Assembly (NCBI RefSeq): GCF_041260155.1
Contig: NC_091933.1
Location: 36,911,293 to 36,975,292, forward strand
DNA length: 64,000 nucleotides
Origin: Ptychodera flava
Taxonomy: Eukaryota; Hemichordata; Enteropneusta; Ptychoderidae
Reading direction: 5' to 3'
Each line of letters starts with the position of its first letter. Position 1 is the stretch's first letter. Shown in pieces: positions 11,101 through 39,900 of this stretch. The translations under genes and the position numbers were made by a program. The notes under the pieces were generated by a model. That model saw only the letters and a list, made by a program, of their open reading frames with translations, made no database searches and was not told the DNA's origin.

Positions 11101-14100
11101 CCAACCTGTCTTTAACATGTAGACTTTGCAAAATCTACACATGAATATCTAAACAATCTATTTATGTGTTGATACTTTTTCAATGTACCAAAAAGAGCTG
11201 TTTGACAACAAATAGATGTAATGTTCTTCATGGCAAGACACAACCAAATATGAACTGCGGGGAGATAGTTCAGAAAGTGTTGATCTGTCATGATTTTTTC
11301 TGGTACAATGTATCAAAAAGTGTCAAAAAAGACATGTTTCCTTATTGTGTGACAGACAGGTCACTACTCGGGGTCATGACTTTTAGCAATTTCGTGTGTC
11401 ACAATTAAAATATCATATATGTTATTGTTTCACAGTCTGAAAGTTTTGGTTAAAACAGAATCCTTACTGTAATTTTGATGCACTCAAAACAAATTAGGTT
11501 CTTACCCTATCCCTCCTAAACTAAGGAACTACACTTCTACTGCGTCAGCTATTATGATCAATAGCCTCCTGATGATTGCACCATGATTTCAATATGTGTT
11601 ATATCTGGTAGCAAAACACTGTCATTGCCATCAAAACTGTTTTGAAACCTGCACAGGTCATGTGAGGTTGTATGACTACATAACTTGGTATATTTATTTT
11701 TCTTTTCAAACCAATGTGTGAGTTTGTACAACAGGTTTTTAAACATTATATCAATGATGCAAGTCAGGTCCACTGAAACTCTCTTTATTTCATGTTGTTG
11801 AACAGTTCAAAGGTCACATTGCAACCTCATCGTCTCTTTCTGTGTTGTTATTTTTCATTGGTCAGGTACCTGCCATGTGGGCGGCCAAGTCGTATCCATC
11901 ATTGAAACCACTAGGTAGCTATGTGACTGATCTCATAGCCAGGCTGCAGTTCCTAAGGGTAGGTCACATCTTATCTTAACACTATAACCCTAATGCTAAT
12001 TGGCGTCAGTGTGAATCAAATCTGTTTAGGTAATATGCACTCGAAAGTAAAAGACTTAAACTTTTGCTCTAACTTTCCTCAAGGAATCTTTTAATCATTC
12101 TCTTTCAAAATCAAGAATAAAAATAGGGGGTCACCGTGCAAATTTTGGTACTAGAGAAACAAATTACCCAAGATTTACCGATATTAGAAATTCAAAATGG
12201 CCGCCATCCCTGTGTTAACTCTATGAAGAAAAATAAAAATTTTCGAATTTCGAAAAAGTAAGCCAATGAAAAGTTTTCTTTCACCAAGAGCTTTAAAATG
12301 AACCCCCACATGTTGTATATCAGAAGAGAATTGTAAAAGTTTGAGAGTCCGAAGGTCTGCCCCTGAGGTGCGTTCTGCCTTAACCATTTTACAAGCAAAT
12401 TTCAAGGCCACGCTATACTGTTAGCTGTGATAGATTTGGCCTCTAAAAAGGAAATTGGGAAGGTATTGTGCTAGAAGTCGGATGTTTTTTCATGTTTGTA
12501 CAGGAATGTCAGTGGCTGACAGGCAAAGTTGAATGTTTACCATTTGAATAATATATACTTAGAACACATATATATTTATATTATTATACATCTACCATCG
12601 AGAACAATAGAACTTAGCTTGTGCTAAAAAAGCCGTACTGAACGCGCGCCCGTTCCGTAACACGTACGGTTTCAAGGCGCCCCATTCCCTGCTGCTGTAT
12701 CTGCACGTTCACTGTAGAACGGTTTCAAGGGACCCCTTGGATGAGTGCCAGAACGTATGTATGTGTGTAGTGCACACACTAGCTCCAAAACTTGCAGAAG
12801 CGCGTCCGAGGTAGCGTTCCACACTGGCGCTATAAAATCGGAAGTAAAATTGTTGACATTGCACGAAAACGGTCACTACTCCGACATTTTGATGCCCCGA
12901 TCAGGAATGTAAGATGTATAATAATAAGGTTATTACGAAAATACCGCAAAGGATGCACTCGGACATTGGTGCCGCGCATCGCCCTTCGCTTGCGTCGGCG
13001 ATACGCTGCGCCAATGTCCTCGTGCATCCTTTGCGGTATTTTCATAATAACCTCATAATATTTCTTTTTATCCAGTGTGTAAAATTGGTAGGAAAAGAAT
13101 ACTGAATCAGTGACAAACAGCAGTTTGAAAGATAACTAATACAAAATATCTCTTGTAACCCAGGATGATGAAACTTGCTTTTAGGTTAACCCTTTGCCTC
13201 CTGACCCCCTGGTGACCTATGACATCATGCAGACATTTTTGTCTGAGCTGGGTTCAAGGAGTTAATATTCAATGTAACACAGGTCTTGGATTTTGAAATG
13301 TTCTTACAATACATCCCACCATATTTTGTAGCCTGACATCATATGCTTCCTTGTAGACACTGATATACTTGTGTTGTTTTCTGTAATCCAATCTTGTGCC
13401 AATTATAATTATTAATCTGATATTAATGGATTATAACTGAGAGTAATGTGATAACAGGTAACACTATATTTTGACTGATTGATTCTCACAATGTTTTGCT
13501 TTGATTAAGGAATGGATCACCAGCGGGATGCCCAACGTGTTCTGGATATCTGGATTTTACTTCACACAGTCATTCCTGACTGGATCGTTGCAGAATTATG
13601 CCAGGAAGTATAGAATACCCATTGACCATCTGGGATTTGAGTTTGAAGTCACCGACCAAGAGTCAAACATGAATTCCAAACCAGTAAGTGGTTACCATGT
13701 AGGGTGATAATTACTTGCATGAAATGTGTGTTGCCATGGAAATTTCTCAAAGTGTTATCAAAGGAACAAAGTCTCTATGTTGTCTGTGATCATGTATGGC
13801 GGCAAGAAATCTCCTTCAAATGCAATGCATAGGAATATTTTCAGTTGTATTAAAGGATTAAATAAAGCTACCATCATTTTTAGACGCTGTGTTTGTCAGA
13901 GTTGGATATAATTGTTTATTTGCTTGAAACTTACTGAAAAGAGCGATGGACAAACACCTTGACCCTGCTTCAATATGGAACAGACAATGAACACCATGAC
14001 ATAATTTCTTAAAGATACATGTATATTGTACTTTCAACACAAATTTCATGGTAATGAGTGAATGACTATTCCAACAAATCACAAACTGTAGTGTAAGGCA

Positions 14101-16085
14101 TAGGAACATTCATTTGACTGAACTGAACTGAACAGGACCTCATCAGCTAGTGACATAATTTACACCATGGTTTACAAGGCCTTTGACTTTTGTGACATTA
14201 AGGTAGTGTGCACCTCGAAAGTGAAAGACTTAGACGTTTGCTCAAACTTTCCTCAAGGAATCTTTCAACCACTGTCTTTCAAAATCAAGAATAAAAATCG
14301 TGCAAATTTTTGTCCTTGAGAAACAAATTTCTCAAGATTTACCGATGTTTCAAATTCAAAATGGCCACCATCACTGTGACAACTCTATGGAGGAAATGTT
14401 TCAATTATCAAAAAACTAAGATGGTGCAAGTTCTTCTTTTTCCAAGGGCTTCAAAATGAGCCCCCACAAGTGGTAGATCAGAAAAGAATTGGAAAAGTTT
14501 GAGAGTCTGAAACTCATCACCGAAGCACATTCCAACAAAAAAGTGACTTTGTCCCTGTGAGATGACATTTCTCATATTACTTTTCTCAAGATTTCTTCAA
14601 ATGTAATTCCATGGTATTTCTGTTTTGTTTGCCTGACAGAGTGACGGTGTCTATTGCAAGGGTTTGTTCATGGAAGGAGCTCGGTGGTCAAGAACAAATA
14701 AAGTGATCAGTGAATCCAATCCCAAGATACTGTTCGACCCCGTACCTGTGGTATCCTTTGCTATGTGTTCACAGACTGAACAACTGCATAATAACTAGCA
14801 TCTAACATCATGGATTCATCTGGTGGTAAAATTGCCATCCAATTTGGATTCATAACATTCCAATTGGAATTTGTGTTTCAGACAGAATCATTTTGTGATA
14901 TAAATATACACTGCTATAGGGTTGTCCACATTATCAGAATGACAAGACAAAATAGTAACAATAATTCACATACATGTACATACAGAAATGTTTCATACAT
15001 TATTCATGTAAAAGAGAGAGAGAGAGAGAGAGACACACACACATCATAATTTATGTTAATTTTGATTAAATCCACAATCATCATAACATGATTATTTTCA
15101 AGGTACTGGTATGTTGCTATGCCTTACTACATTTTTATGCCTTTAAATATTGAATTTTTTTACAAGGCTGCATGTAAACTAGAATGACTGTGTTTGAATT
15201 CAATTCTGAAGTACTGGTATTTATGGTGTGTAAAATCAACACTTCAGTTAAGTGTACAACATCTATAATAGTTGATTTCTGTATATTCACTTTGCCATAC
15301 CAGGCTGCAGGCATCAATATGCCACAAGCATAATTAAGTCAGTGTTAGAAACCTTAACCAGCATTTTATTTGTAGATTTGGTTTAAGCCAGGCGTCAAAG
15401 CTAACTTCCAGCCCAAGTCATCCTATGCATGTCCAGGTACTGTATGAAACACTGACACATTTCCTCACTCATATTCCACTTCCTGGTACACAATGCTTTC
15501 CAAGTTGCGATATACAGTGGTCAATATAAACATGTGCAGTAGCTCACCAAATGAGAAGTATATTTAGTGAACATATACCTACTTTGAACTGCCTATACTT
15601 TGAAACTTTTTAGATCCCTAATGTGTATTGCATGGTCTACAATATTCACATGTATCACACGTCTTATGATGTGCATATATGTGTAAAGCCAGACTCAGTC
15701 TTGTACCTGCATTCAAACCAATGTACATGTATACATGTAGGTATGCTTTGTCACCTAAAAGTTCAGCACCATGGTTTCAGAAGAGTGTATTTGCTATGTT
15801 TCCGGTACATACATTTGCATGTATATATTAAAGAAGTGGATGAAATTAGAATCATTAATGCAAGTTTCCATTGTCGCATCACTTTCACCATGTTTACATA
15901 CAGGATTATGTAACCATTTTGATCTGTTTTCCATTTCAGTTTACAAGACAAGTGCAAGACGAGGGGTGTTATCCACCACTGGACACTCCACAAACTTTGT
16001 GTTGGATATTGATCTTCTGTCCGATAGAAATGAAAGTCACTGGATTAATAGAGGAGTAGCCATGCTCTGTCAGCTTGACGATTAA
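2148..16085 (+). CDS. DNAH3: Axonemal dynein heavy chain, 3' part (DNAH3-like)
   Basis: Dynein heavy chains are the ATP-driven motors of cilia and flagella; the DNAH3/7/12 group forms single-headed inner arms. Twelve plus-strand exons join in frame: 2148-2224, 2771-3064, 3725-3862, 4595-4855, 5406-5498, 9686-9784, 10634-10816, 11866-11958, 13510-13683, 14640-14750, 15376-15436 and 15940-16085 (TAA). They give about 575 residues, the C-terminal eighth of a chain of about 4,000. Landmarks are [92 protein letters not shown] and the terminal [11 protein letters not shown]. Nearly all introns fall between codons; the last is phase 1. This part holds the end of the AAA ring (AAA6) and the C-terminal domain. 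Phrases such as [30 protein letters not shown] and HWINRGVA match my memory of DNAH3 better than DNAH7 or DNAH12, but the exact paralogue is not proven. The gene is 5' incomplete here. Confidence 0.9.
3080..3440 (+). repeat. Imperfect tandem duplication in a dynein intron
   Basis: Two neighbouring units share the same order of phrases: gaa..ggaactaagtgaatgt / ggaactgagtaaatgta, then agctggta.tttt..., ctgttcccattgctat, and ggcactggtgaa...tgacg.tct. The second unit (about 3307-3440) is shorter because the first carries an A-rich insert near 3200. The repeat stays inside the intron and does not touch a splice site. Confidence 0.6.
5090..5405 (+). repeat. Degenerate tandem array ending at a splice acceptor
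   Basis: About nine loosely spaced copies of a phrase like ATATCTTACCA(G), every 30-40 bp, each followed by AT-rich filler such as agcacattttcattta. The final copy, atatctcaccag, is the acceptor used by the dynein exon at 5406. Several earlier copies (for example tatatcttaccag near 5325) look like weaker acceptors. Confidence 0.6.
5499..9177 (+). other. Long dynein intron
   Basis: AT-rich intronic sequence without recognisable coding potential apart from the candidate 51-bp exon at its end. The open frames here (for example 8351-8632 on the minus strand and 8426-8644 on the plus strand) overlap each other on opposite strands, have no family resemblance and lack splice support. Confidence 0.6.
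9178..9228 (+). CDS. Candidate 51-bp cassette exon in the dynein gene
   Basis: The segment codes for [17 protein letters not shown] without a stop. It is preceded by a long pyrimidine-rich tract ending in ctgtctag and followed by the donor CAG|gtacca. Length is 17 codons, and both neighbouring introns are phase 0, so including it would keep the dynein frame between ...TLPRQ (ending 5498) and AQGGARST (from 9686). The dyneins I remember have no insert here, so it would be a lineage-specific or alternative exon. Chance remains possible, because short open stretches between splice-like sites are common in long introns. Confidence 0.35.
10291..10510 (+). mobile_element. MITE with TAACYCTTTGAGTGC ends, copy 1
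   Basis: This 220-bp AT-rich element starts with taactctttgagtgc and ends with gcactcaaagggtta, an inverted pair differing at one or two bases. The body contains tcccaccaaaattttag. A second copy, in the opposite direction, lies at about 37800-38005. The absence of coding capacity and the short terminal inverted repeats fit a non-autonomous DNA transposon. The superfamily is not known. Confidence 0.7.
12028..12382 (+). repeat. Dispersed repeat family A, copy 1
   Basis: A 350-bp repeat found four times in the window. Shared phrases in order are cgaaagt.aaagactta, tttcctcaaggaatctttt, tcaagaataaaaat, gagaaacaaatt, aaattcaaaatggccgcc, tctatg.ag.aaa, and aaaagtttgagagtc. It does not code. This copy lies in a dynein intron. 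Confidence 0.75.
12921..13060. mobile_element. GC-rich foldback element
   Basis: An inverted repeat with arms of about 60 bp. The left arm runs from ataataaggttatt through ataccgcaaaggatgca to gccgcgcatcgcc. The right arm mirrors it as ggcgatacgctgcgcc...tgcatcctttgcggtat...aataacctcat. The loop is short and GC-rich, unlike the surrounding AT-rich intron. Overlapping open frames on both strands here are by-products of the symmetry. Confidence 0.75.
14198..14534 (+). repeat. Dispersed repeat family A, copy 2
   Basis: Starts ttaaggtagtgtgcacctcg and ends near aagcacattccaac. It shares the ordered phrases of the copy at 12028, including tttcctcaaggaatctttc and aaattcaaaatggccacc. The start ttaaggtagt is shared with the copies at 31620 and 55369, so it probably marks the true left edge of the family. 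It lies in the dynein intron just before the exon at 14640. Confidence 0.75.
15010..15045 (+). repeat. GA/CA microsatellite
   Basis: A run of GA dinucleotides followed by CA dinucleotides inside a dynein intron. Confidence 0.9.
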
Positions 16086-22125: not shown

Positions 22126-25100
22126 ATGCCTTATCACCACAAAACAAGAAGAGTATACTCTTGGATCATAGTTCTTGCGTGTTTCTGTATGTTAAATTCT
22201 TGTGAAGGTCAGAGCGGTGGCGATTTATACAGGATAAACGGTAAGGCCACTACATCAACCAATTCATGCTCATTTCTTCCACGGCTATTTCAGACTTATG
22301 TTCGAAGTATTATGACAAACATGCAAATGTACAAGTACGAAGATGTTGAAAAGGCAAGCTTGAAAATTCTCAGTAGTTCTTTATAATTCTGATACCCACT
22401 GTAGATAAACTTTTGTTTGGCTCTGGAGAACGAGTCCTTAAATTGAGTCCTTCAGTTGGCCTCTGTTTGCTTTAAGCATAGACCTCAGTCTATATGGAGT
22501 ACTGCGGGAAGACCTATCGTCGAGGTACACTCAAGCGAGTAAATTGTATGAGCAGGTCATCATAAATGAAGAAAAACTTGCATTTCATGTTTCAAACCAC
22601 TTCAGTCGTTGACTGTGTTCAAACATGAGGTGCAAGCGACTCCGTGGTTCAAACATGGACCAAGACTGAGCTCAAACCATGGAGCTAATCAAACCTAGGG
22701 CGGCATTACGTATACATAATCCGGTATATCTAAAGTCACATTTACATTTCCCTCTATCTCTTACTGAGTTTATGATTACATAAACTATTTTGAAGGAAAT
22801 TCAAATCGGCGAGCAAAGCCCCACAACCATGAATGGATTATCTATTCAATCAACAAGAACAAATATACAAAATGTTTTAAGATTTCTTCGAGGTTCGCTA
22901 CATAAGCTCTCGCGTATAAATCAACAAAATTTGGGCACGAAACAGAATATTTAATAAGTAAAATAAAAGCATCGGCCAGGGCGCCTACTTGCTCTCTCGA
23001 ACAACGAAAATTTGATAGTAGTGGCATTCATGTAGGCGACTAGCAACCGGTGCCAAGTATAAACCTACAGCCTCTGTTGAAAGCCATACTAGCAAAAGAC
23101 ACCGCGTTTTGTCAAGGGTAAAGTAACCGTGTTAGGGTCTATGGTTTGTCTTTGTTTGCTATCGCCGAAGTCAGTTACATATTTCCATGCAATAGACTCT
23201 CGAAGAAAGTGTCGATGTACAAAGCTGGTATTGCAATTATGTGTCTTTCTCCTTTCACCCCGTAAGACAGGACCCGATCTGGAAGATCAGATGTGCTGTG
23301 AGGCCCGCCGCGTGTCCTCATTTGAACTTTTCCAGCTTTCAGTTCTACCACTAATCTATGGTCTCACTGCATATTTTTATTAATATTACGAGTATAACAA
23401 TGGTTCTCCAATACGAGACAAAATTAATCCTTTTAATTTACTTTGTGAGTACCAAATGATTTCATCGGAAACTAACTCATACACTTTGATGCGCTGATGT
23501 ACGTCTCTGTGTGACATGACATCCTAAACTACGACAGACATGTTTCATGAAGCATATCGTCATTATATTCTACTTCCTGAAGTACCGAATTTCAACTTTC
23601 ATCACCTCCCACTATTTCTTAGTTTCACTGAAACCACAATGAAACTGCTGAAACTTAGGTCAAAATCTCAGTGGCATTTACTTGAAAGTGGTATGATCAC
23701 GTCTCCTGCCTAATGTCAAGTTTAGTTACACAGGGTAGTTGAGGTATTATCGGAGGTTCAACTCAGTGTTGGTCGTCCGTGTTCTCCTTCAAGTCAAGCC
23801 ACATCGATATCGTTGCCTGTTGTTGCCTTTTATAAACTTATAACATCACAATTAGCTTACTGATATGGAAAAGGTCGATCAAAATGAACATTGACAGATT
23901 TAGCACTAAATTAAACACTTATTCTCTGCTAGAATGGTGGTTAATATGGAAAAACATATGTACTTGCATCTTGCTGGACAATTTCTGCACATAGGAATAG
24001 ATTGTATGGCGCAGCATAATACAGGGAACCACTACTTCAGTGTTTCACACAGGTAGATTATGCTACCTCGTGGAGGTGAGCGAAGAGCTCTTTTCTGCCG
24101 TGGGGTTCACGGGCTTAAAAGTAGATAGAATGCTGCGTGCGAAAGCGATTTCCTTCGGCATCATAATAGTAGAGCAGACTTTTTCTCTGCAGTCTTGACA
24201 TGCTTATACTGACTGCCTTGACACACTAACGTTTACATTTTAGATGACGAAGATGACGACGATAGTTGCGGAGGTACTCGAAGCGTAAGGGAACTGCCTG
24301 GCCAAATTACGACTCCGAATTATCCAGACGCATACCCGGACAACGAGGATTGTAATTGGCTGTTGGTGGCAACACCTGGTGATCATGTCACTATTACTTT
24401 TGATGACTTTGACGTTGAGCAGGAAGATGACTGTCAGTGAGTACATTTCGGAGAATGTTATCTACGCATACCTGCGTTTTTCTTCGAGTTTAATTCCTAG
24501 TCGAAGTTTGAAATAAATTGCTGAATTGCTGAATATGACGGTGTAAGACAAAACCCAGTGAGTTCTGAAAGCTCGTAATTTGAAATGGAAAAGTGTATTT
24601 CTCATTCGCAGGTACGACAACGTCATGATTTTTGATGGCCCTGACAAAAGCTTTGACTTGATTGGTTCATTCTGTGGTAATACAATCCCAGAGGACATTG
24701 TCTCGACCAATCGCCATCTCTATATTACCTTTCATTCGGACCTATCGGAAAACGGCAGAGGATTTTCCCTAATTTACACGATCGATGACAACGATGCAGG
24801 CGATTCTGAGGAAATCCACCCTGAAGAGGAACCAGAATCAAATGAAAGAGGTAACATTGATCATATCAACTAAGGTTGATAAGACTACAATAATCCAGAA
24901 TATGCCTTAATAAAGTTCATGACCCTACAACTTTTTGTAGAAAGAAATTTAAATCCTCCTTACCTGTAACTTAAGATGCATTTTTCATTCTTTTGTTCCG
25001 TATGTAAATACAGATATTCAATGCTTAACACCCAGAAATCGTGATGAAATGACTTATAGTCCAGAGCTTGTCAACAAAGACTTTTAAGAATTCATTTATC

Positions 25101-28100
25101 AACAATAACGTTTCCGGAGGACGACTAGTTTTGAACTCTTTGCCCCTTTCCAAGTAATTGGTATGCATTCGTCATCCATTGACATTATCGTAACTTTATA
25201 ATCTTACTCCTGTGTTGAAGAAGAGGTCAATTCTCGTGCGTAAAGGACCGTGATTATTCAAATAAGGGCTATGTTTCTCCTTCAAAAATGTCAATGTTTG
25301 GAGAACGATCACGCACGGGCGCTTGCAGTTAGAGCGCTTCCCACGGCCATGCATGCGAGGGGAGTCCTTGGACGAGCCATAGTGTTCTTCTCCAGGCCAT
25401 AGTGGTCTTCTCCAGCCTGGTTCTTCTCTTACCACTACGGCTCGGCCAAGGTCTCGCCTCGCATACACGGCCGTGGAAGGCGCTCTAACTGCAAGCGCCT
25501 ATGGATAAGAATGTAAAGACACAGCACTACTCTCCTAGTACAACATTCAGATACTGTTCATAAACAGGACGACCTACATTGTTCGTCTTGACAAATCTGA
25601 TTAGCCTTCACTGAGGGCTGTTTTCTCAACTTCCATGACCTTTTGTAAGGCTTCCTCTTCATCCTCTTGCCGGCTGAAATTGTCAAAAAAGTGACTATTT
25701 TACCCCATTCTTATAGAAAACGCTGAATGTCGGTATCTCTTCACCGAACAAGAAGGAAGTATCCAATCGCCGAATTATCCGTACAGTTACCCTAGCAACG
25801 CCGATTGTGTTTACATCATCAGTGTCGATGATGCAGCCACCATTGAGATCTCGTTCCTGGATTTAGAAACAGAAGGATACGGGTGTTCGTTTGATTACGT
25901 GGTCGTCAAAGATGGAAATAACCAAGGTATGGTACATAGAACCTAACACAAGTATATTCACATACATGCCACTTGTACCCGTTCTGAACGAGCATTGCAC
26001 TATATGGATTAGTGTTTTATGATTTCCAAAAACTTATATGTCAGAAGACGCTGGCGGCAAATGAATGAAATAAGCTTACCTTCCTCTTTACACGGATGAA
26101 AAAAGGACAATATACAACAACATATTCATAGACTACGACTTGGTATCGTATCTTATTTCTTTTACATTTTAGCTGACTTCCTTTCCTTTTGTATCGCAAA
26201 GATTTTCCCCCATTTTTAAATTTCAGATGCGGACACCATCGATACGTATTGTGGAAACGGAATACCGGATCCCATTACATCAACAGGAAATGTGCTTTAC
26301 ATACACTTTGTATCAGATGGTTCAGACAATCGCAGAGGTTTCCATCTAGATTATAAGGCAAAAGGTACTCAAGTGTATACCTAACTTTTTATGCCAGAGA
26401 TGCTACTCAAAGTGTCCTGTTTTTAACCGCAGTATTTTTTTTACTTTTGAAAGATTTTCACTTGGTTCATACTTGTTTCAGTTATATTCTAGTCTCGGTT
26501 ACCCTAGACTGCTCTGCTGGACTCTCATCGGGGCGGCCGGATGAACTTCAAATCCCCGCATAGCAGTCTGGGTAATCGAGACAAGTTGGATTCAATATTT
26601 ATTGCTTTCGTGTGAAGGCTTCTCCGATGTGCCGAAAATCAAGAATAGCTACTTGCGACTGTTTTTTTTGGTTAGTTTTCGTGTTTGTAAAAACTTATTG
26701 GACTATGCTTTTTGTAGAACAATCAATTTTGCTTTCTGAATGGTGCGGTGTTTTCGTGACTGTAAAGGCACATGCACATTAGGACACCGAATTACTCGAA
26801 GGCGGAATTATGGGGCGACTGAGTCAATATGTGGACGATGTATCGATTTTATAAACCATCTGACTACCAAATATGCATTTCTCTTGAAATTTTGGTGAAT
26901 GTTCGTACCACGTTAAAGTCACCTTCATTCTTAACTTTTGCATCTTATTTAAACATTTTTGAAATAAATTCAAACGACCTTTCCGATATTAGCGGCGCGC
27001 TGCCCTTAATTTTGTTTCTTAGTACTTATTAAACTAAAACATATTTGAACCTTACAGGTATTGACCAGCCCGTCGCAGAACAACTCTACTTTACCGAGTC
27101 TCCCCAGAACCTGACAGTTGACATTGGACAGTCTGTAACACAACGATGCAGAGCCAATAACGATGACGTCGTCATCACGTGGTTCAAAGATGGAATATCT
27201 CTTAATCAAGGTTGGATTTTTGTACTTGTAGGCCCTATGTATTTGTTGGCTATGAGTGATTTCCACTGACGTTGTCAGGGGGTGTTAATATCGACGGTGC
27301 TAAAAAAAACCGTCGTTGTGGGACAGAGCCCCGTATTTTAGCACCGTGATGGGTCTATGAGAACTGCGACAAATATAAATTTTGAATATTTCATTATTCT
27401 ATTTTTAAATTACAAAAACGCATTTTCATCAGTACTTTGCTTGAAGTTGTGCTACACAAACTATCTACAATAGACTGAGTGTGATAATTATGCCGATCTG
27501 ATAAACGACTAAAACTTTAAAAACAATTCACAGAATGCGTTACAGAACTTGCTCAATGTTTTTTAGGTGTTAATGACGGCATCTACATCCTAGAAGATGG
27601 TTTATTCATCATACCTGAGATTAGGCATCTACATCCTAGAAGATGGTTTATTCATCATACCTGAGATTAGTGATCAACATTTGGACAAGTATAAATGCCG
27701 GATTCAGACCCGCCGTGGAAGTTTCATAGAAACTACTGTCTCTCTGCACACAGGTAAAGCCCATACCCTTGCTACAATCTCTGCATTTCAATTTCGCTCA
27801 CGTCAACCCCAAACAAAACTTGTAATAATGCCCTTTTAATTATAAAAAGTAAAAATCGTTGGAACATGATATTGGTGATAGAGTTCCATTTCACAACGCT
27901 TACATACAAAGCATATGTATCATGGGAAATACATCCGTAAATCATTCAACAAAGCGTCTTTTTCAAGTTCCATAGTTCCTTCAAATACACTTTGCGCTCT
28001 ATTTTACGTAAACCTATATACATCATCTCAGGTCTGTGAATAAAGTTCCACTATGAAGCTCACTCCTCGCAAAATGTTTACTGAAGATGAAGCGTTTAAA

Positions 28101-29593
28101 ACACAATAAGGAAAAAATGACCGTTTACTGTCCGATAAAACCGCATGTCGACTATAATGCCACAACATGTTACAATTTTAATTCATTAATTTGTCTCTCA
28201 GCGGATTCGCTAATTGCCGGTGAAGTGTTTCAAGTCGTCCCGTCTGATGCTACAATCAACGAGGAAGACATCCATGCATTCCACTGCGAGGTGGCGCCAG
28301 GTTTAGGATACACCGTTGCCTGGGAAAAAGACGGCAACCCTATCGACTTTGACCACAGGATTTATCAGATTCAGGGCAATGACCTTTACGTCTCGATGGC
28401 GTTGCCATCACACGGTGGACAGTATACATGCGTTGCGATTGGAAATAATGACGAAAGAATAGCCACAGCCTCCGCACGGTTGACCATAGTGCCCAAGAAA
28501 ACTGTGGCAGAGGGTAAGCTGGGCAAAATTGTTGCAGTCGCCGGGGGCGCTCTCTTTGTCAACGTTTCGCATGTGATTGTATTTTGGTAAGGTCGAAATT
28601 GCGTACTTTCGATCTCGCACACTTATTACAAAATATTATTTTCAACACAATGCATACGTGACTGTTATTCCGCGGAAAAACTAAAGGCACACAATCGGTT
28701 AATTTCGTTTCGGAAATCAAATTTTGCATGATCAAATTTTATGCTGGAAAATAGGGAATGTCTGACGTAGTTTTTACTTTCTTTTTTTACTTATAGTCTG
28801 TGGTAAAGTGATGGTTGGCAATGATACAACCGAAGACGCAACTCCAGCTGAAGACAATTTTCGGATTGTTGACGGGAAGACTTCGGTGAAAGGTACAGCG
28901 CCATGGATGGCCAGGCTCTGGAACGTTTATGATCGTCGTCATTTTTGTGGCGGCAGTGTTCTCAATGACTACTGGATTGTAACTGCTGCACATTGTTTCA
29001 GAAATTTGGCCGGTCCCCCTGAACAACTGGTGGAAATCCGCCTTGGAGATTACGACGACTTGCAGCCTGATCCGGAAGAACGGATTCACCCGATTGCGGA
29101 GGTTATACCGTACCCGGATTTTGACGGGAGTAATTTTGACGGCGATATCGCCTTGGTGAGACTTGTCACAAAAATTCAATTTACAGACTACATCTGTCCG
29201 ATATGTTTGCCAAGCAAACTAGTTGCACAAGCCATGCTGAAAAGAAATCAGGTTGGACGTGTTCTTGGATGGGGACAAATATCAGAAGGGGGACGATATC
29301 CCCGATATTTGAACGAGGTGAACGTCCCAGTCCGGCGGAAACCAGAATGTGTGGAGTCTGCGCAGCCTTATGAAATGACATCCAATATGTTCTGTGCTGG
29401 TTACCGTGGGGCACTGACTGGAGACGCGTGTAAAGGTGACAGTGGCGGTCCTTTCGTTCAACAGAGAAATAGCACTTGGTATCTGGTCGGTATTGTCAGC
29501 TGGGGGGAGGGATGTGCAAGAGAAAATGAATTTGGCTTCTACACAAAAGTTTACAAATATTACGCTTGGATTGACGATGTTCTCAACCAGTAA
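22126..29593 (+). CDS. Secreted CUB-CUB-Ig-Ig trypsin-like serine protease
   Basis: Nine exons: 22126-22240 (ATG, A at -3), 24244-24436, 24612-24850, 25717-25926, 26227-26364, 27058-27210, 27567 or 27625-27753, 28202-28513, 28797-29593 (TAA). The product is about 761 residues. A signal peptide (hydrophobic core SWIIVLACFCML) is followed by CUB1 (SCGGTRS...TTPNYPDAYP...CQYDNVMIFDG), an acidic linker, CUB2 (ECRYLF...SPNYPYSYP...CSFDYVVVKDG), two Ig domains (C..WFKDG...DKYKC; FHCEV..AWEKDG...GQYTC) and a trypsin domain. Cleavage would fall at R/IVDG. The catalytic residues are in TAAHC, DIALVRL and GDSGGPF; Asp six residues before the serine predicts trypsin-like specificity, and VSWGEGCA is intact, so it should be active. 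Introns at domain borders are all phase 1, as in exon-shuffled extracellular proteins. CUB plus protease recalls C1r/MASP and ovochymases, but those lack Ig domains. The substrate is unknown. Confidence 0.88.
22241..24243 (+). other. Protease intron 1
   Basis: A 2-kb intron after the signal-peptide exon, with donor gtaagg and acceptor acattttag. I see no further exon or recognisable element. Confidence 0.6.
25128..25200 (+). repeat. Short dispersed repeat shared with the dynein 3' region
   Basis: The stretch ctttgcccctttccaagtaa followed by attcgtcatccattgacatt resembles 17615-17690 (gtttgtccctttccaagtac, then cagccattgtcattattgta). Both are non-coding. The family and edges are unclear. Confidence 0.4.
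25318..25500. mobile_element. Foldback element in protease intron 3
   Basis: An inverted repeat whose outer arms match closely: ggcgcttgcagttagagcgc at the left and gcgctctaactgcaagcgcc at the right. The inner part (cacggcc..gcatgcgagg, ccttgg.cgagcc) also mirrors, with small gaps. A short direct repeat, ccatagtg.tcttctccag, fills the loop. It is much more GC-rich than the surrounding intron. Confidence 0.7.
26492..26582. mobile_element. Short inverted repeat in protease intron 5
   Basis: Arms gtctcggttaccctagactg and cagtctgggtaatcgagac surround a GC-rich loop of about 50 bp. It is non-coding and looks like a small foldback element or the remnant of one. Confidence 0.6.
27294..27347. repeat. 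Small hairpin in protease intron 6
   Basis: acggtgctaaaa and ttttagcaccgt form a perfect 12-bp stem around a loop of about 30 bases. It lies between the two exons of the first Ig domain. Confidence 0.5.
27578..27669 (+). repeat. 46-bp tandem duplication inside an Ig exon
   Basis: Two identical 46-bp units, 27578-27623 and 27624-27669, each starting ggcatctacatcctagaaga and ending cctgagatta. Because 46 is not a multiple of three, the exon from acceptor 27566 changes frame and no longer matches the phase of the next exon. The junction creates gagattag|gc, an AG acceptor ending at 27624. An exon of 27625-27753 has the right phase and loses only three residues (Val-Asn-Asp) compared with the unduplicated form. 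Confidence 0.9.
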
Positions 29594-29840
29594 CAAGGAC
29601 ACCAAAATGTGGAATTTTCAGTGTACGCCCTCTACTGGTTGGTTGTTTTCAGGGAGGTACCGGTGGAGAGCGCTGTAAGCTCTGCCCGCAAGTCTGTACA
29701 AGGTGTTGCTAAGCGGTAATGCAGCTTTGAGAAAGCCAGTAACAAGCAAAACTATCTTAAACCATTGTAACCATGTTTCATCACCGGGGGTTGTCTACAT
29801 GTTCGTCCCCAGGGGTGGGTAGGTGTTTCGTTGTATCGCT

Positions 29841-29846
29841 AATAAA
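29841..29846 (+). terminator. Candidate poly(A) signal of the protease gene
   Basis: AATAAA about 250 bp after the protease stop, inside the left arm of the palindrome. I see no other AATAAA between the stop and this point. Confidence 0.5.
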
Positions 29847-30306
29847 GATATATTCTACCAACCTTTGGTGTTTCGGTCTTAACTTAGCACTGCCCTTGAC
29901 AATCTTGCGTATACGTTTTATCAACATGCTGCGTCTATTATCTGATGAGTTTGAGCGCCTAATTAGCCAAAGTAATCAAGGGTAAATTACTAATCTGTGG
30001 ACGCTCTCACCAGATTATCACCGGATTAAATATGACAAAGTCAATAACGAACGCACCAGCAAGGTATCTTCAGTTATACCTTGCTGGTGCGTTCGTTATT
30101 GACTTTGTCATATTTAATCCGGTGATAATCTGGTGAGAGCGTCCACAGATTAGTAATTTACCCTTGATTACTTTGGCTAATTAGGCACTCAAACTCATCA
30201 GATAATAGACGCAGCATGTTGATAAAACGTATACGCAAGATTGTCAAGGGCAGTGCTAAGTTACACCGAAGTTAGACCGAAACACCAAAGGTTGGTAGAA
30301 TATATC

Positions 30307-30312
30307 TTTATT
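30307..30312 (-). terminator. Mirrored poly(A) signal in the right palindrome arm
   Basis: TTTATT on the plus strand, so AATAAA on the minus strand: the mirror image of the signal at 29841. It could stop minus-strand transcripts that read past RRP9. The nearer RRP9 signals, TTTATT at about 30937 and 30951, are more likely the main ones. Confidence 0.4.
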
Positions 30313-30997
30313 AGCGATACAACGAAACACCTACCCACCCCTGGGGACGGACATGTAGACAGCCCCCTGTGGTTTCATTGAAGAATTTCCATCAGTCAAT
30401 ATCTATTTGACAAACACATATACAGCAGCATATTCCGAAGCCTTCTGTTTTAAACCTTACAGTTTAAAACCTGATTTTATTTTCGCGGACAAGTGGTCTG
30501 TATAGCACATTTCATATTCAGCTGAGTAAAAATTTCAAAAGCCAGGAGATAATCTGTTCTGTCAACAGTCTTCCTGCAGGAGAAAACCAAGCTTTGTTTA
30601 GATAAGGAGTTCATTTTCTGTAAAAAAGAATTTCTTTTCTTTAATTTTGTAAAGAATTAAAACTTTGGCGGAGGGCGGCGTCTATTATCTGATAAGAGGA
30701 GTCACAGACTTAAACATCTGTCGTTTGAGGGCGCTGTCTACACGAACGGGGAGGGGAGCATAGAGAGTGCTCGTGAACAGTTGATTTTCAGTTTAATAGG
30801 AGAGTCACTGCTATTGATGTAGTGGTGGAGGAACTGTGATCTAATGACAACTACAACGCGTGTGTGCACAATGCACTGAACACTATATTATTCTTAGGAG
30901 AGAACATGAATTGCTCAAGTACACATCAAATAATTTTTATTCAAGATAATTTTATTCCTCTTTGTTCAATAAAGTTAAAGAATAAAGGATGTCTTAA

Positions 30998-33900
30998 CTA
31001 TGAGCTATCTTTCTTTCTTAATTTGATGACAACTATGCTGTTTTTGGCTTCTTTAAGTCGCCACCATCTTCCTAATCTGTGTTCTTGTCCGACACCAGCC
31101 ACTAGGAAACTACCATCGCTAGAAAACTGCAAGGCATTCACAAAACCAACCTGCATTAGAGAAAAACAAGACAGAGGTGACAAGTAAGAAAGCTGTCTAG
31201 GATTCAAACTGTCACTTGACTGTATAGACTACCTATCATATAGTATATATGGTATGCATATTGCTTTATTTCAATTTGTCTACTCGGTCATTAAACTTTT
31301 GGATATTAATACATTTTTGCACTTTTTGTTGAACAAAAAAATTGAGTTGGAAGTGGAAAGGAACTACATTCAGTAATCTGTCTCATTCTAGCAAACTGAT
31401 GTGAAAGGACAGATGAAAAGGGAAGGTGAGAAAACTATAGACGTTTTTCATTTGTAAATGAACTAATCCTACAGTCATCATAGGGGTCAAAGGTCATGTC
31501 TACTTACCACAGGTATTTGAAACAATGGCTGCAGTGACTTGAAATGTTCTCCACACTGCCAAACACGAATACTGGAATCTCTGGACCCTGCTGGAACAAA
31601 AAATGGATATGTCTTTTAAACATTTTCAATACTTTTCTAATATACCACTTGTCCGGACTCATTTTAAAGCACTTCAAGTAAGAAACATTTTTACGTTCTT
31701 ATTTTTTAGAAAAATAAAATTTTGTATTTTTCTCCATACAGTTAACACACGTGTGGCAGCTATTTTGAATTTCAAATTCTCTAGTTCCAGACTTTGCATG
31801 TTGACCTTTAACTTTTATTCTTGATTTGGCAAGAGAATGGATGAAACTTTCATTCAGGAAGGTTTCAGCAAAACTTTAAGTCTTTCACTTTTGAGTAGTC
31901 GCATACTACCTTAATTGCCTGTAAAAATCTTATAACATAGCCATATCAGGCAGAATCCATTGTGGAAGGTTTTCAGATTTTCAAAATCTTTTAGTTCTCT
32001 GCTGGTCTACAGCTCAGAAGACCAATTTTCAATATTACACAGAAACTTACTGTTCTCCGCAGTTTCACATGGAGATGGGTTGGAATTACAAATATTTCAA
32101 ACTTTGAGGTAATTAACTTCTCCAATCCAAACGTTTGCACAATGATCTCAAAGTTTTGGTCTTATGTAAGAAAATCATTTCAAGTTTCTTTGAGCAAAGT
32201 ACCAGGACAAGTTAAAATCTTTCAGTTTCCAGGTGCACATTAGAGAAATGATGCAAATTATCCTTTACTGTGTGGCAACACGATTGGTCACACACAAATC
32301 ATGCAAAGATGAAGGGATATAATACATAAGTTTTGCTATCTGGGCATACTTTATTTTGATCGCTTTGATAAAAAAGAGTTCCTTTTTTGAAAACCAATTT
32401 ACAGTCCATCTAATGGATGTTGAAATTACAGTAGACACAAACCTGATGCCACCATGTCTGTACTTTTCAATGCAGCTACCGCTGAGATCCAGTTCTCATC
32501 AGGAAGTTTGCCATTGTCGGTGTTACTGTGTGCATTCTGTATCACTACTGTTGGTTTCTTCTTCATCACGCTCCACAATGCCAGTGATCTACACAGCATG
32601 GCATTTTATGAGAAAAAAGAAGTTGAATCAGTTACCGCCATGAGGAAAACTTGTCTGGTTCTGGTAAACTTCATTACAAACAGCTCTAGTGATGGTCAAA
32701 ATGGCTCCATGGATTAGTGTGTTTGACTCTGTTTTGGTTATGTGTGGAATCTACCAGTGAAAGAGTGCACATACTTTTATGTTCTCATGACAGAATGCAT
32801 AATGAAATAGTATGCTCTTACGGTAATACATTAACCTTTCTCTGCAGATGATGTCACAGATTGGCTCTATGTAGTAACAGTTCATGTTGTAACAAACTCC
32901 ACTTATAATTTCTGTCATGATTTGTCAATTTATGGTCAGATGGACTCATTTTAGCACTGATAGATGCAAAAATTAAACTGTCCAAGAAGAAGTTTGGAAG
33001 TGCTACCATGAAAATGTCATCGGCGTGAGTACACATTCTAGAAAACATAAACAAAGACGGAGCTGAAGTCTTTGATAGAGATGAATGACAGCTGAAAAAT
33101 TTCACAATTTTCAGAGTGGAAATGAATGAAGTGTGTTATACAAAATACAGACTGGCCATATTAAGGTAACAGCACACATTTGTTTCTTAAAGTCTGCAGC
33201 CTACATGTAAATCTATTGGACATCCCTATAAAAATTATGTTACCTTAGGCAACAGTGACCCACTGGTCCTTGGTGAAACCAACATTTGCTTTTGGCCAGT
33301 CAGTATTTGCATTCTACAGTGTCATTCTCACTCTTATGCCACTGTTTTTGAGATCTTACAATTGCCTGAAGTGTCCAAAACTGTTTCTGTCAGTGTTTTA
33401 ATTGTGTTAGCACTGTCATGTAACTCTGTGGAATATGCACTTTTATAGTACAGTTGACATTGATGAATTGCTCTGGTTCAAGCATAGACCCTCAAGTTTT
33501 TCTCGAGGGTCTATGGTTCAAGTCATAATAGGAAATAAACTGTTTTCTTTGATGCTTTCTCACTATGGCCATAGGATATTTCTGACCCTTACCCATCATC
33601 AGCTCCAGATAAAAAGTGCCCTTCATTAATCAGCTGTATACAGTCAATACAGCCTTGGTGTCCATGGAACACTAGCTGTGATTCCTCAATCACCTTCCAT
33701 ATTCTGATGGTTCCATCACGTCCTCCGGAGGTTATCGCCCTCTCCCGACTCAGACTGTCAATTCCTGTGATGTCACTCTGGTGACCAAATCTGAGGACAT
33801 GCGAAATAATTGAACGAAAATGAATAAAGAAGCCACATTTTCCTCACTTTAACTTCATATCTGGATGTCACTACATCTGTCATAGACAATGACAAAGAAA

Positions 33901-36900
33901 ATGCCTCTACTTCTTTCAATGTAATCTATTTAATCTCGTGTAATTATTATCAAATTTCAGAGTAGATCCCGTAACACCAAGTGTGAATGTTCATGCTAAT
34001 CAGAATTTCACAATGAACATATGTATACCTGTACATTTTTTGTACAGTACTGCATCAGAACATATAGTTAGAACAACCTAGATCAATCATGCAAGATTGG
34101 ATTCAACTGGGCTGCAGCATGTAAAATCTTACAAATACACTTTCAAGAGAGTGGAAAAACAGTATTAGTACGTTGATCTTTCTGCTAAATCAATACACTA
34201 ACTCATAGTAGTGTTAACAAACAGGTCTGCTCTATCAAAGTATTGCTCACAACTTCAGTAGTCTTTGTCAGATTGGGTGACAATCTTGGATGGAGTGGAA
34301 AGGCATAAAGAACACACCAAAAACTTACAATGTTTCTACATAGGCCATTTCATCCAAGTTCCATATTTTGACAGATCTGTCATGTGATGCACTGAATAGC
34401 TGGTGTGTGTTTCTTCTGAATGCAAGACCCTGACAATAGATATAGAATAATTATCATTTCACTGAAATGTCTGATGTCACAAAACACTGGAATGTGCTCC
34501 TTGCATCCCAAGAGAATGGTGCAGCCCTATTGTTTCATATGGCAATCTCAGACCTCTGTAAGGCAACTTTGTGGTACAAAACTGAGGGTTTTTTTTCAGT
34601 GAGAAGGACAATTTCGCTGTACACTGCTTTGAATACCTGGGCTTGAGTTTAGTTTCCGTTTTTCACAGGCTGGGTGAAAGCATTGTTGTAAATTCCACTG
34701 GATAAGAAAAAAATGTTTGAATTTTGCAGACCTTGTCTTCATCCACAGAAATAGTGGTATAAGCTACGCTAGTGCACAAAATAGCAATATATCAAATGCG
34801 AGCAGACGGATGTCAACTGAACTCACCGATATTGCATCTCTGTGTCCTTTGAAAGTGTGCAACAAGTCACAGGTAACTGGATCCCACACATGGATTAATT
34901 TATTCCTGCACCCTGACACCTGGAGTACATGGAAAACAATTAAGATACATGTAGATATGAAGTGCATGAAACTCAAAAAAATTACGTTTTCATTCCTGAC
35001 AAACCCATTTATAAAGGTGCACATCACAGAGAATATTTGCAAAAATATCGTATGTCATTTACATCCTATTAACAAGGGTAAAATTTGGATGAGGTGTTTT
35101 TCATTTACCTGTAGATTTAAACAAAATACTAATTTTCACCAGATGATTACCGTTATTACTTACCAGAAATTTTCCGTCTGATGAAATTGCTAAACATAAA
35201 ATATGTGCCGTATGGCCTTTATGTTTGCCTTCAGTTCCTTTCCTTCCACCGGGAATCACATGTTCCTTCTTTCCTGTTTCTATATTCCCTGTCAAAATAA
35301 GTTCAGACAAAGTCAGTGACTATCAGCGACAGCTAGAAATAGATGTGATATAAATAATACATAAAAAGATTACTGTTAGTGCTAGCATTTCCCAATTATC
35401 TGAGAATATACCTGACCTGTGTACAATAGGTCAATACAGTACAAGTCATTCTCATATGCTGAATATCAAACACAGGCAGGTTATTCTCTTTTCTGTGCAT
35501 GTCAAAACTTGCAGTGACATTTTTGAAGCGTTTTTTTCACTATAAGACAGTTCCTCTTCATAATATATTATAACACTGTTTTCCACTTGGGTATGCAATA
35601 CTGCATTACATTTGATAATAATGACATGACACCTTACTTTGAACAGACTAGTTGACGGTAGCACAGCATTCAGGATAACCAATTTATTTACACTCACATT
35701 TTATTATTGAACAATCTTTTGCAGCAGAAAATATGTACTTGTCATCAGGTGATATGACTAAGCAAGTAATTGATAACTGATGGCCACGGAGAACCCTCAT
35801 GTCATCCTCTGTAGGCTCCTCATAGTCTTTGGCAACTTTCTTCTGGAGTCGACCAGCCTGTTCTAACTGAGGTACAAAAGAGATGTTGGCATTAAAAGCC
35901 CAAGTGCATCATGACATCACAAACACATCTACAAATTTAAATGAAGAGTGGCTGCTAAACTTTATGTCAATACTTGAAGATTGTTATGATATTGAACGAC
36001 ACTAGTGGATGGTGATTATATAGATATCACTGGGTTTTGACTCGAAACCTGAATACAACACAAACAAACCAAATTTGAAACTTGTTTTCGTCTAAATATT
36101 GTTGCTGGAGATGACTTTGACTTCAAGGTAATGTGCCAGTTCACAAAAGCAAACCATATGCATGTTTAGAAATTTTCCCACGAAAACAAAGTAATTGATT
36201 AAAATAACATTGAGGGCGCACTGAAAAATTGTATGGAACTAAACAGTCTACATGGTACAAGGTTTGGGAACTCTGATAACAATTCTACTGTTACTAATAC
36301 AATTGCATTGATTTACCGTGGGGAACACAGGGTTAAATTTCCCTGGTTAACAAAACACTGAATAAATTGATTTGAAAATCAGATTTCAGAAGTACCAAAC
36401 AACTTCACAAGATTAACAGACAGCAAAAATGAAGAAAACAATTGTAATATTGTACGAAAAAAAATTTTGACTTCTGAAAAAAAGGGAAAAGCTGAATGTC
36501 CGGCCAAATTTTTGTAAGTACAGATTATCAACATACGAAAGATAAACTTACAACTTCCTCTTGTAATCTGTGAGAAATTGCATCTTTAAGTAAATCTTCA
36601 GATTCTTGTTTTTCTTTCTCTGGAACATGAACATCACACAGAAACATCAACAATTTTGTACATCATCGTGGTATCATTTGAAGACTGTAGCATTTTAACT
36701 GATCAAAATGTTGGGAAATATTGCAATTGCTTGACTTCATACTGTGATGCTTTTAGAGAGCTGAATAGAATACTAATGAATCATACGAATGAATTGTTAT
36801 TTTTAAGTAAGAACAACTTATTCTGGGTCTGGGTCCAAGAAGAGAACTCCTTATTATAAATTAGAATGATTCCAGTTTAAACTTTTGGCAGTTCATGATT

Positions 36901-39900
36901 AGGTGATAGAAGGAATTTAAATTCATAGAATACTAGAAGTTGGAAATGTATTTTTTTATATTTTCAGTTCATATGCACATGTACAGCATTCTTAATATTG
37001 TGACAAATAAATTAGATTACTTATTTTAAAACAGAGCAAGCTGAAATTACTTTAATGAAACCATCTTTCTTCATTATTTTTCCATCTTACCTTGGGATTC
37101 CAATTCTGCAAGATATTGCTTGGTAAGTCTCAATCTCTTCTCCTGGGCAGTCTCATCGTTATCTGATTCAGATTCAATAGCTGATGCCTCGTCACTGCAA
37201 TACCAATGATAAAGGCAGTTGTCGTTGATGTGATTATAGTCATGAAAACTATTGTTTAACTCAAAATATGCTATAAAACATTTAATCTGTCAGATATTCA
37301 CAAGCTGTCCAAATTGATGTACGGTGATAACTGATCCTTTGTAGAATAGAAAAAAAAACCATTGCCCAGCTAGGTCCAGGAAAACATGATATGCTGGCAA
37401 ATTCAGTTAAATTTAGGACTCCTGAGGGCAAACTCATGTGTTTTGGCTGTCAGTGAGTAGGTCTATAAAGCTGCATTCATTGAGGGGAGTGTATGTGTCC
37501 AAAAACTTAGAAGAAGAATGTTGCTAAGAAGTGTGTGAAAAATTTTGTATATACAATAAAACCTTTAGTATTCCACAAACATGCAGTGGTGTTCAGTTTA
37601 AGTACTTAATCAAGCATACAGTAATTTCAGCAGGCTGGGCACTACCTCATTTTCTGCCCATCAACTCCCCCCCCCCCTCCAATAAACAAACCCACAAAGC
37701 CTTCATGTCTTGCAAAGGTTCAGATTTCCTAATCCTTCTCCACGGATGATATCCATGTAAACCTCTTTCTCCTGAGTGGTACCACTAATAACTGCCTGAT
37801 TTTAACCTGTTGTCACCTTTACAGAATATACCTCAGTCAAATTTTTTTCAGATTTTTGCCAAAATTTTGATAAAGAACTGTAGCCAAGGAAGTATGATTT
37901 CAATTTGGTCCAAAGTTATCAAAAACATTACAGAAAAATTCATAAAATTTGGTAAAATGTTGCTCTAAAATTTTGGTGGGAGAAATGACAGCGCTCAAAG
38001 AGTAAACTTTCTTACGACTGAGATGAATATTTGATGGTTGAAACCATCTAAAACAAGTGCAGTTTGATTCTATGGATACATCATCCTTTCACTGCTAATC
38101 AAAAGGCTTCATACTGATTGGGGATTAACCAGTACATCCCACTTCTTTGTAAAACAGACCAACAACCAAATATGGTCTCGGGCCACACCATTGGTCTTGT
38201 ATTACATGTATCACGAAAGTTTCTACCCTGGCATGAGTCAAAGTTTCTATAGACTAACTTACCTATCAATTTCTGATTCACTTTCAATTTCCTCATTCTT
38301 TATTCCAGGCCTTCCCTTGGTCTTGAATTTCTGTCTGTCTCCACCTGCTTCTTTGGCAGCTTTCTTTATGATTGAAGTATAAAGACATCATTAGTGATGC
38401 AAAGTCACTAACAGGATTATCAATGCATGTCTACTGTTAGTACTTTACCATGGCACTAATACTGTGTTCCCACTAGCCAAACCAACGCCGCCGGTAACTA
38501 ACGGTTTTGATTGGTAAACACCTGTGGATTAACCCTTAATCTCTACTTATGTCCATACACGGAATTTCCTCCGGTGTTTTGAGGAAAACACCGGTTGTTT
38601 GCGCCCTCTACGTTCAATATATGTCTATAGTAGAAACCGAGTCTAACTTCAGCATCGTCAGGTTGGATATAAACAACAATGGCGGATGTCCAGGACGCAA
38701 CTGTAGCGGCGTGTCTCCTGTATTTTCACCTTCATATGCGATCCAGACGGATTCAACAGTTCAATCGTCGCCTCAGGAATGCCCAGCAACATGGACACAA
38801 CGTACTTCAGTTTGACCATGACGAGTACGCAAGAAATTTTCAAGAACGCCGTAGGCGATCGACCATGCGTTTCATGTACATGCTGCTTCAGCATTTAAAC
38901 AATGCATTGACGCCAGTGGCCCGAGTCTGTCACTTCTTTAAACTTTGCTTTAAGGGCCTTCACTTTTCTGTGAATCTGATCGGCACTTCTGTTCAGTCCC
39001 TTTGCCATGGCTTTCTCTGCTAATGTACGATACACTAAGCTGTCCCTTGACGTGCCGTCCATCATCTGTTGAATCCCAGAATCTTTCCAGATGGAAATCA
39101 GGAGGGCTACTTCATCTTCCGACCAGTTATTTCCCCTGAAAGCTGGAGGGCATTGAACGGGAGCGAGAGATCTGTTGTCTTCCATGGTTCGTGTCGAGTC
39201 CAGCTATGCGTACTGTGCACTCGAGCTGATAGGTCAGAGGTAATGTTTTGGACAAAAGTCGTCGCGAGAGGGCGTTTACACCGTCGTTAACCGTTCTGAC
39301 ACACAATTTGCGTCGGCGCGCCGTTGCAGGTCTGACGAAATTCGACGCCGTAGATCGACGCCGTCGCAGCACCGTCGTTAACTGTTCTCACACGTGGTTT
39401 TCGTCGTTGTTTACCATAACAACGGCGTTCACAACGTTGTTAAATGCTGTGTCAGAACGGCACTTTTGTCTACCCACTACACTCAGTGTAGTGGGGAGTA
39501 TGGTATTTTGTTCAAAACATAGGTCTTTTGGCCCGACCTAAGTAAATGCATCGCGAAGTCCAGGTGGACTAAATTCATGGCTCTGTTAACTTGAAATCAA
39601 TATAAGCTGATAGTTACTTGTAATATGTGCAGTGCAGGGGGTGGCGTGTTCTTCTTTCCCCCGAAATGTAATGCACAGTATAGAAACCATGGTTTTTCTC
39701 GGCGATCTATGTAGAAACCATGGAGGTACCAGAAGAGTACCTCCATAGTAGAAAGGATTACAGTTAACTTGCACCTTTTCCAACCTGCCCAGAACCGACT
39801 CGCCCGATACAAACTTGCCCGATTCCAACTCACCTGAAACCAACTCACCCGATTCCAACTCACTCGAAACCAACTCGCCCGATACAAAATCTCCCATTGC

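Follow-up and report, generated by a model that had tools for sequence, protein, structure and literature searches.

A nine-exon CUB-CUB-Ig-Ig-trypsin gene of Ptychodera flava, probably encoding a MASP-like protease with Ig domains in place of CCP modules

The hemichordate Ptychodera flava carries a nine-exon gene whose product joins a hydrophobic leader, two CUB domains, two Ig domains and a trypsin domain, and which, judging from its sequence, is probably a secreted protease zymogen of the invertebrate MASP-like (MASPL, or MASP-related) kind, with an Ig pair replacing the CCP modules. The gene was analysed within a window of 64,000 nucleotides, by which we mean the whole stretch of DNA under study. 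Our confidence in the MASP-like reading is tempered because the relevant text of the published survey of such proteases (Sun et al. 2024, PMC11312191) leaves the phyla that carry the Ig pair, besides Arthropoda, unspecified.

Results

According to our gene model, whose exon chain was derived from genomic DNA with inferred splice joins, the gene occupies positions 22126-29593 of the forward strand and reads as one continuous frame of 761 codons plus stop, from an ATG at 22126 to a stop codon ending at 29593 (Table 1). All eight introns are of the GT-AG type, the longest being 2003 bp and the one between Ig2 and the protease 283 bp, and their phases from 5' to 3' are 1, 2, 1, 1, 1, 1, 1 and 1. 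Phase 1 holds at all five inter-module introns (leader/CUB1, CUB1/CUB2, CUB2/Ig1, Ig1/Ig2 and Ig2/protease), just as an earlier sequence-only reading of this DNA had stated, and the three introns inside domains interrupt CUB1 (phase 2), CUB2 (phase 1) and Ig1 (phase 1); Ig2 and the protease domain are each encoded by a single exon. A division of the CUB, Ig and protease exons among separate genes is disfavoured by the one open frame that runs across the eight GT-AG introns.

Splice sites were scored against a simple consensus and compared with the 428 GT and 382 AG sites found in the gene. The donors of six of the eight introns match the consensus at six of eight positions, a level that 27 of the 428 GT sites equal or better, and those of introns 5 and 6 agree with it at five, a level reached or exceeded by 112 of the 428. 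Pyrimidine fractions of the acceptors range from 0.65 to 0.88, the exceptions being intron 5 (0.53) and intron 6 (0.59).

Table 1. Exons of the protease gene and the tandem duplication, in coordinates of the window
Feature	Coordinates	Strand	Content
Exon 1	22126..22240	+	ATG; hydrophobic leader (signal peptide judged by eye); ends in phase 1
Exon 2	24244..24436	+	First half of CUB1, residues 39-103; acidic stretch before CUB1
Exon 3	24612..24850	+	Second half of CUB1 and acidic linker, residues 103-183
Exon 4	25717..25926	+	First half of CUB2, residues 183-253
Exon 5	26227..26364	+	Second half of CUB2, residues 253-299
Exon 6	27058..27210	+	First half of Ig1, residues 299-350
Exon 7, short	27625..27753	+	Second half of Ig1, residues 350-393; the frame-keeping one of two versions tried
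Exon 7, long	27567..27753	+	Better-looking acceptor; frameshift from the duplication, 381-residue product
Exon 8	28202..28513	+	Ig2, residues 393-497
Exon 9	28797..29593	+	Whole trypsin domain; R519/IVDG, H562, D613, D706, S712 (AGT); stop
Exact tandem duplication	27578..27670	+	46-bp unit in 2.0 copies with 100% matches; length not divisible by three

On the spliced product Pfam detects CUB (1.3e-65, two stretches), Trypsin (4.2e-58, one stretch) and I-set (4.8e-15, two stretches, with Ig domains at about 311-391 and 401-487). Each of the three scores exceeds its own gathering cut-off, and the domain calls are therefore not a matter of chance. This search of a domain database, which had been proposed earlier as a check, returned two CUB domains, two Ig domains and a trypsin domain and, together with the exon chain, it bears out the claimed order of hydrophobic leader-CUB-CUB-Ig-Ig-trypsin, the leader being judged by eye. 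In the Pfam output the positions ahead of the protease are held by Ig domains, without CCP/Sushi modules. EGF is likewise absent from that output and found no match in a cysteine-pattern scan of the eight introns, a scan which an odd EGF could escape. As a candidate for a hidden CCP exon, one loose cysteine-pattern match at 23147 in intron 1 was considered and, lying upstream of both CUBs, dismissed.

With the protease domain numbered from an alignment to prothrombin, the activation site is R519/IVDG, the triad H562/D613/S712 is complete, and the specificity pocket has D706 at position 189 and A707 at position 190, with F742 at position 225, in agreement with the His, Asp and Ser, the D189-type specificity and the R/IVDG site described before. 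These residues predict an active enzyme, made as a zymogen and cleaving after Arg. The codons of S712 and S731 are AGT and AGC. An aromatic residue at 225 and AGY serine codons are usual in C1r/C1s/MASP-2 and in thrombin, and a protease domain encoded by a single exon is usual in C1r/C1s/MASP-2. The likeness to the latter enzymes lies in the single-exon protease domain with an AGY serine codon, whereas the histidine-loop cysteines Cys42 and Cys58, both present here, are not known in them. If C498, which precedes the activation site, is included, exon 9 encodes nine cysteines, and therefore one is left without its usual partner; by position this is C630, three residues before C633, which might stay free or form an inter-chain link.

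The full protein matches 631 PDB sequences, of which the best 60 comprise 58 thrombin or prothrombin entries, one cubilin and one factor Xa; MASP, C1r and C1s are not among these best 60 of the 631. When the CUB pair is taken by itself, 46 PDB sequences match, MASP-1/3, C1r, C1s and MASP-2 chains included, with cubilin, neuropilins and PCPE-1 ranking best and MASP-3 and the other MASP/C1r/C1s chains below them. The best PDB matches of the Ig pair are contactin-2 and Robo1. In the alignment with cubilin CUBs the acids E97, D105 and D146 of CUB1 are kept, and so are E233 or E235, D242 and D283 of CUB2; we take these E / D / D positions to be the calcium-binding residues of CUB domains.

It would be logical to ask here about an independent origin, in which a secreted protease of development, matrix or clotting acquired its CUB and Ig modules separately, through exon shuffling, and is unrelated to MASP or complement. 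The modules could have been freely shuffled because the inter-domain introns are all of phase 1, and this origin would also suit the failure to find an EGF and the scattered kinship of the parts, the closest PDB matches among those listed being thrombin for the protease, cubilin and neuropilin for the CUBs, and contactin-2 and Robo1 for the Ig pair. A PDB ranking, however, depends on which proteins were solved, and its scores add over several CUBs per chain; moreover, an Ig pair standing for the CCPs beside the protease is reported in MASP-like and C1s-like invertebrate proteins in the relevant text of the survey (PMC11312191), which makes descent the easier explanation. We regard independent shuffling as unlikely, and keep it as the leading alternative to a MASP-like identity.

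A feature absent from the earlier description is an exact tandem duplication within exon 7, which encodes the latter half of Ig1 (Table 1). The upstream acceptor, 27566/27567, has a pyrimidine fraction of 0.71, with 47 of the 382 AG sites as good or better, and splicing there shifts the frame and brings a stop after 381 residues. The frame-keeping acceptor, 27624/27625, lies 58 bp downstream of this better-looking one, at the end of the first repeat copy, and has a fraction of 0.59, with 135 of the 382 AG sites as good or better. As the duplication breaks the frame, the full-length protein depends on the acceptor 27624/27625. The duplication could belong to the true genome, to one allele, or to an error of assembly.

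From the same data one could argue that the gene is impaired in this animal or allele, or that it yields mainly a short form, with both CUBs and part of Ig1 and no protease, given that the repeat is exact and frame-breaking and that the acceptor with the fraction of 0.71 looks better than the one with 0.59. An error of assembly, or an allele of very recent origin, would however also show a perfect repeat; an in-frame acceptor is present, and the remaining eight exons share one open frame, to which the protease exon contributes 265 residues, so that we consider impairment or a predominant short form quite improbable. In vertebrate MASP and C1r the CUB1-EGF pair forms the calcium-dependent dimer and the carrier contact. 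A bolder scheme, to which we attach hardly any belief, would combine an EGF-less CUB-CUB-Ig-Ig protease, whose docking would not involve the CUB1-EGF dimer interface, with a splice switch at exon 7, brought about by a young duplication, between the full-length enzyme and a CUB-CUB form of 381 residues that lacks catalysis. The vertebrate counterparts to which such a form is likened are MAp19 and MAp44, but here the form would be reached by a different route.

As to the surroundings, the protease gene and its neighbours give the window the look of animal DNA, with genes that contain introns. Dynein heavy chain exons lie at 2735-4867 on the forward strand (Pfam Dynein_heavy 5.2e-28 at 2735-3082 and AAA_lid_11 1.7e-27 at 4595-4867), and a LIN37 exon (Pfam 1.5e-18) at 47385-47795 on the same strand. 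The reverse strand carries a Myb/SANT-like DNA-binding domain (7.2e-15) at 38898-39203, possibly transposon-derived, and a WD40-repeat gene at 31001-35054, with a Pfam WD40 match of 4.5e-11 at 33592-33843, a score of 0.0017, below the cut-off, at 34767-35054, and no match at 31001-31228; by its motif this gene presumably resembles RRP9. Just downstream of the protease gene, 29782-30371 is a 590-bp self-inverted repeat whose arms are 94% identical; it is probably an element of the foldback or MITE-like type, and the first AATAAA past the protease stop codon, at 29841, falls within it. Four copies of a dispersed repeat, 66-79% alike and in both orientations, were found in the window at 12025-12353, 14198-14511, 31618-31914 and 55369-55711. 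No further copy of the protease gene was found in the window, the tblastn matches outside its own exons having E values of 3.2, 5.3 and 5.4; searches with Rfam and with ARAGORN (bacterial code) had 0 matches, and a scan of viral contigs confirmed no relative of the protease exon, one stretch fitting a pattern.

Discussion

Vertebrate MASP-1/2/3, C1r and C1s are built as CUB-EGF-CUB-CCP-CCP-SP, and the protein of P. flava resembles them in its two CUBs, its two-module spacer and its C-terminal trypsin domain, the last with a predicted Arg-type zymogen cleavage. It differs from them at the N-terminus, where two CUBs were found without the EGF of the CUB-EGF-CUB arrangement, and ahead of the protease, where Ig domains stand in place of the two CCP/Sushi modules. 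That it falls outside the vertebrate-type definition, with no EGF found and no CCP, does not lower the claim that the protease works in a MASP/C1r/C1s-like manner. Ovochymases and other CUB-protease mosaics have CUB and trypsin domains in common with it; they are not known to contain Ig domains and follow a different order.

Among invertebrates, the name MASP-related molecules (MReM) is reportedly linked to Gorbushin (2018/2019), and we infer that MReM and MASPL belong to a single family. The features that the P. flava gene shares with MASPLs are CUBs and a trypsin domain without CCPs, with two IG domains in the CCP place in some MASPL members. In its relevant text, the survey of Sun et al. 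2024 (PMC11312191), which also takes in Hemichordata, describes MASPLs of Arthropoda, Mollusca and Annelida that are devoid of both CCPs and in part carry a pair of IG domains, and says that in most lower invertebrates the CCPs are replaced by two IG domains, Arthropoda being the only phylum specified there. The MASPL accessions given in the survey include C. gigas MASPL-1 (XP_011447092.3), L. littorea (QBA18416.1), P. vannamei (ROT74645.1) and S. kowalevskii (XP_006821215.1). The same source presents an arthropod C1s-like protein of the order CUB-EGF-CUB-IG2-Tryp_SPc, whose bearer is an arthropod in its results, a shrimp in its discussion and two spiders in a legend, and it cites a mollusc MASP without CCPs as able to induce C3 cleavage. 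Unlike the arthropod C1s-like form, which has an EGF, the P. flava gene has none that we could find. It does combine CUBs and a trypsin domain without CCPs and puts a pair of Ig domains where these would stand, as do the Ig-type MASPLs of that text (PMC11312191); Ig domains in this position have thus been described already, and the gene appears to be another representative of an established type. In the portions relevant here, a nemertean study cites invertebrate MReM and reports none in Lineus ruber (PMC9835746), and work on placozoans found no MASP (PMC6321704).

The sequence-only reading had known of no protease with two Ig domains for the CCPs, a view which the MASPL and C1s-like proteins of the survey's relevant text (PMC11312191) do not support. 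Its suggestion of a lineage-specific protease is weakened by the published Ig-type MASPLs, even if that text does not specify which phyla outside Arthropoda have the Ig pair. It had also named a known family with the same domain order as grounds for giving up its interpretation; the exchange of CCPs for Ig domains is indeed reported, and the EGF-less CUB-CUB-Ig order did not occur as a text string in the literature searched, where architectures are drawn in figures. Its broader picture is supported by the predicted anatomy and the literature: a protease with CUB and Ig modules that acts outside the cell, plausibly in immunity, and in which Ig domains take the position of the CCPs of MASP/C1r.

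Returning to the MASP-like identity that we favour, the domains, the protease residues, the CUB acids, the MASP/C1r/C1s chains among the CUB-pair matches and the relevant text of PMC11312191 count for it, and the EGF that was not found, the PDB rankings and the presence of the histidine-loop Cys42 and Cys58 count against it. We propose that the CUB pair, with the acids of calcium-binding CUBs, would attach the zymogen to a protein serving as carrier or for recognition, and that the Ig pair may serve as a spacer and as an arm positioning the substrate. A cut after R519 would free the IVDG end and switch on an Arg-preferring active site of the trypsin type, and the activated protease might then cleave a zymogen downstream of it or a C3-like protein. 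Calcium binding, the partner, the substrate and a role in immunity are all putative elements of this scheme, extrapolated from residues and domain order.

To the reported invertebrate proteases of complement type in which Ig domains stand for CCPs, the present analysis would add one gene with mapped exon phases. The gene alone alters no general view; its intron map, together with the EGF that was not found, could bear on the question of whether Ig-type and CCP-type proteases share their ancestry or arose by convergence.
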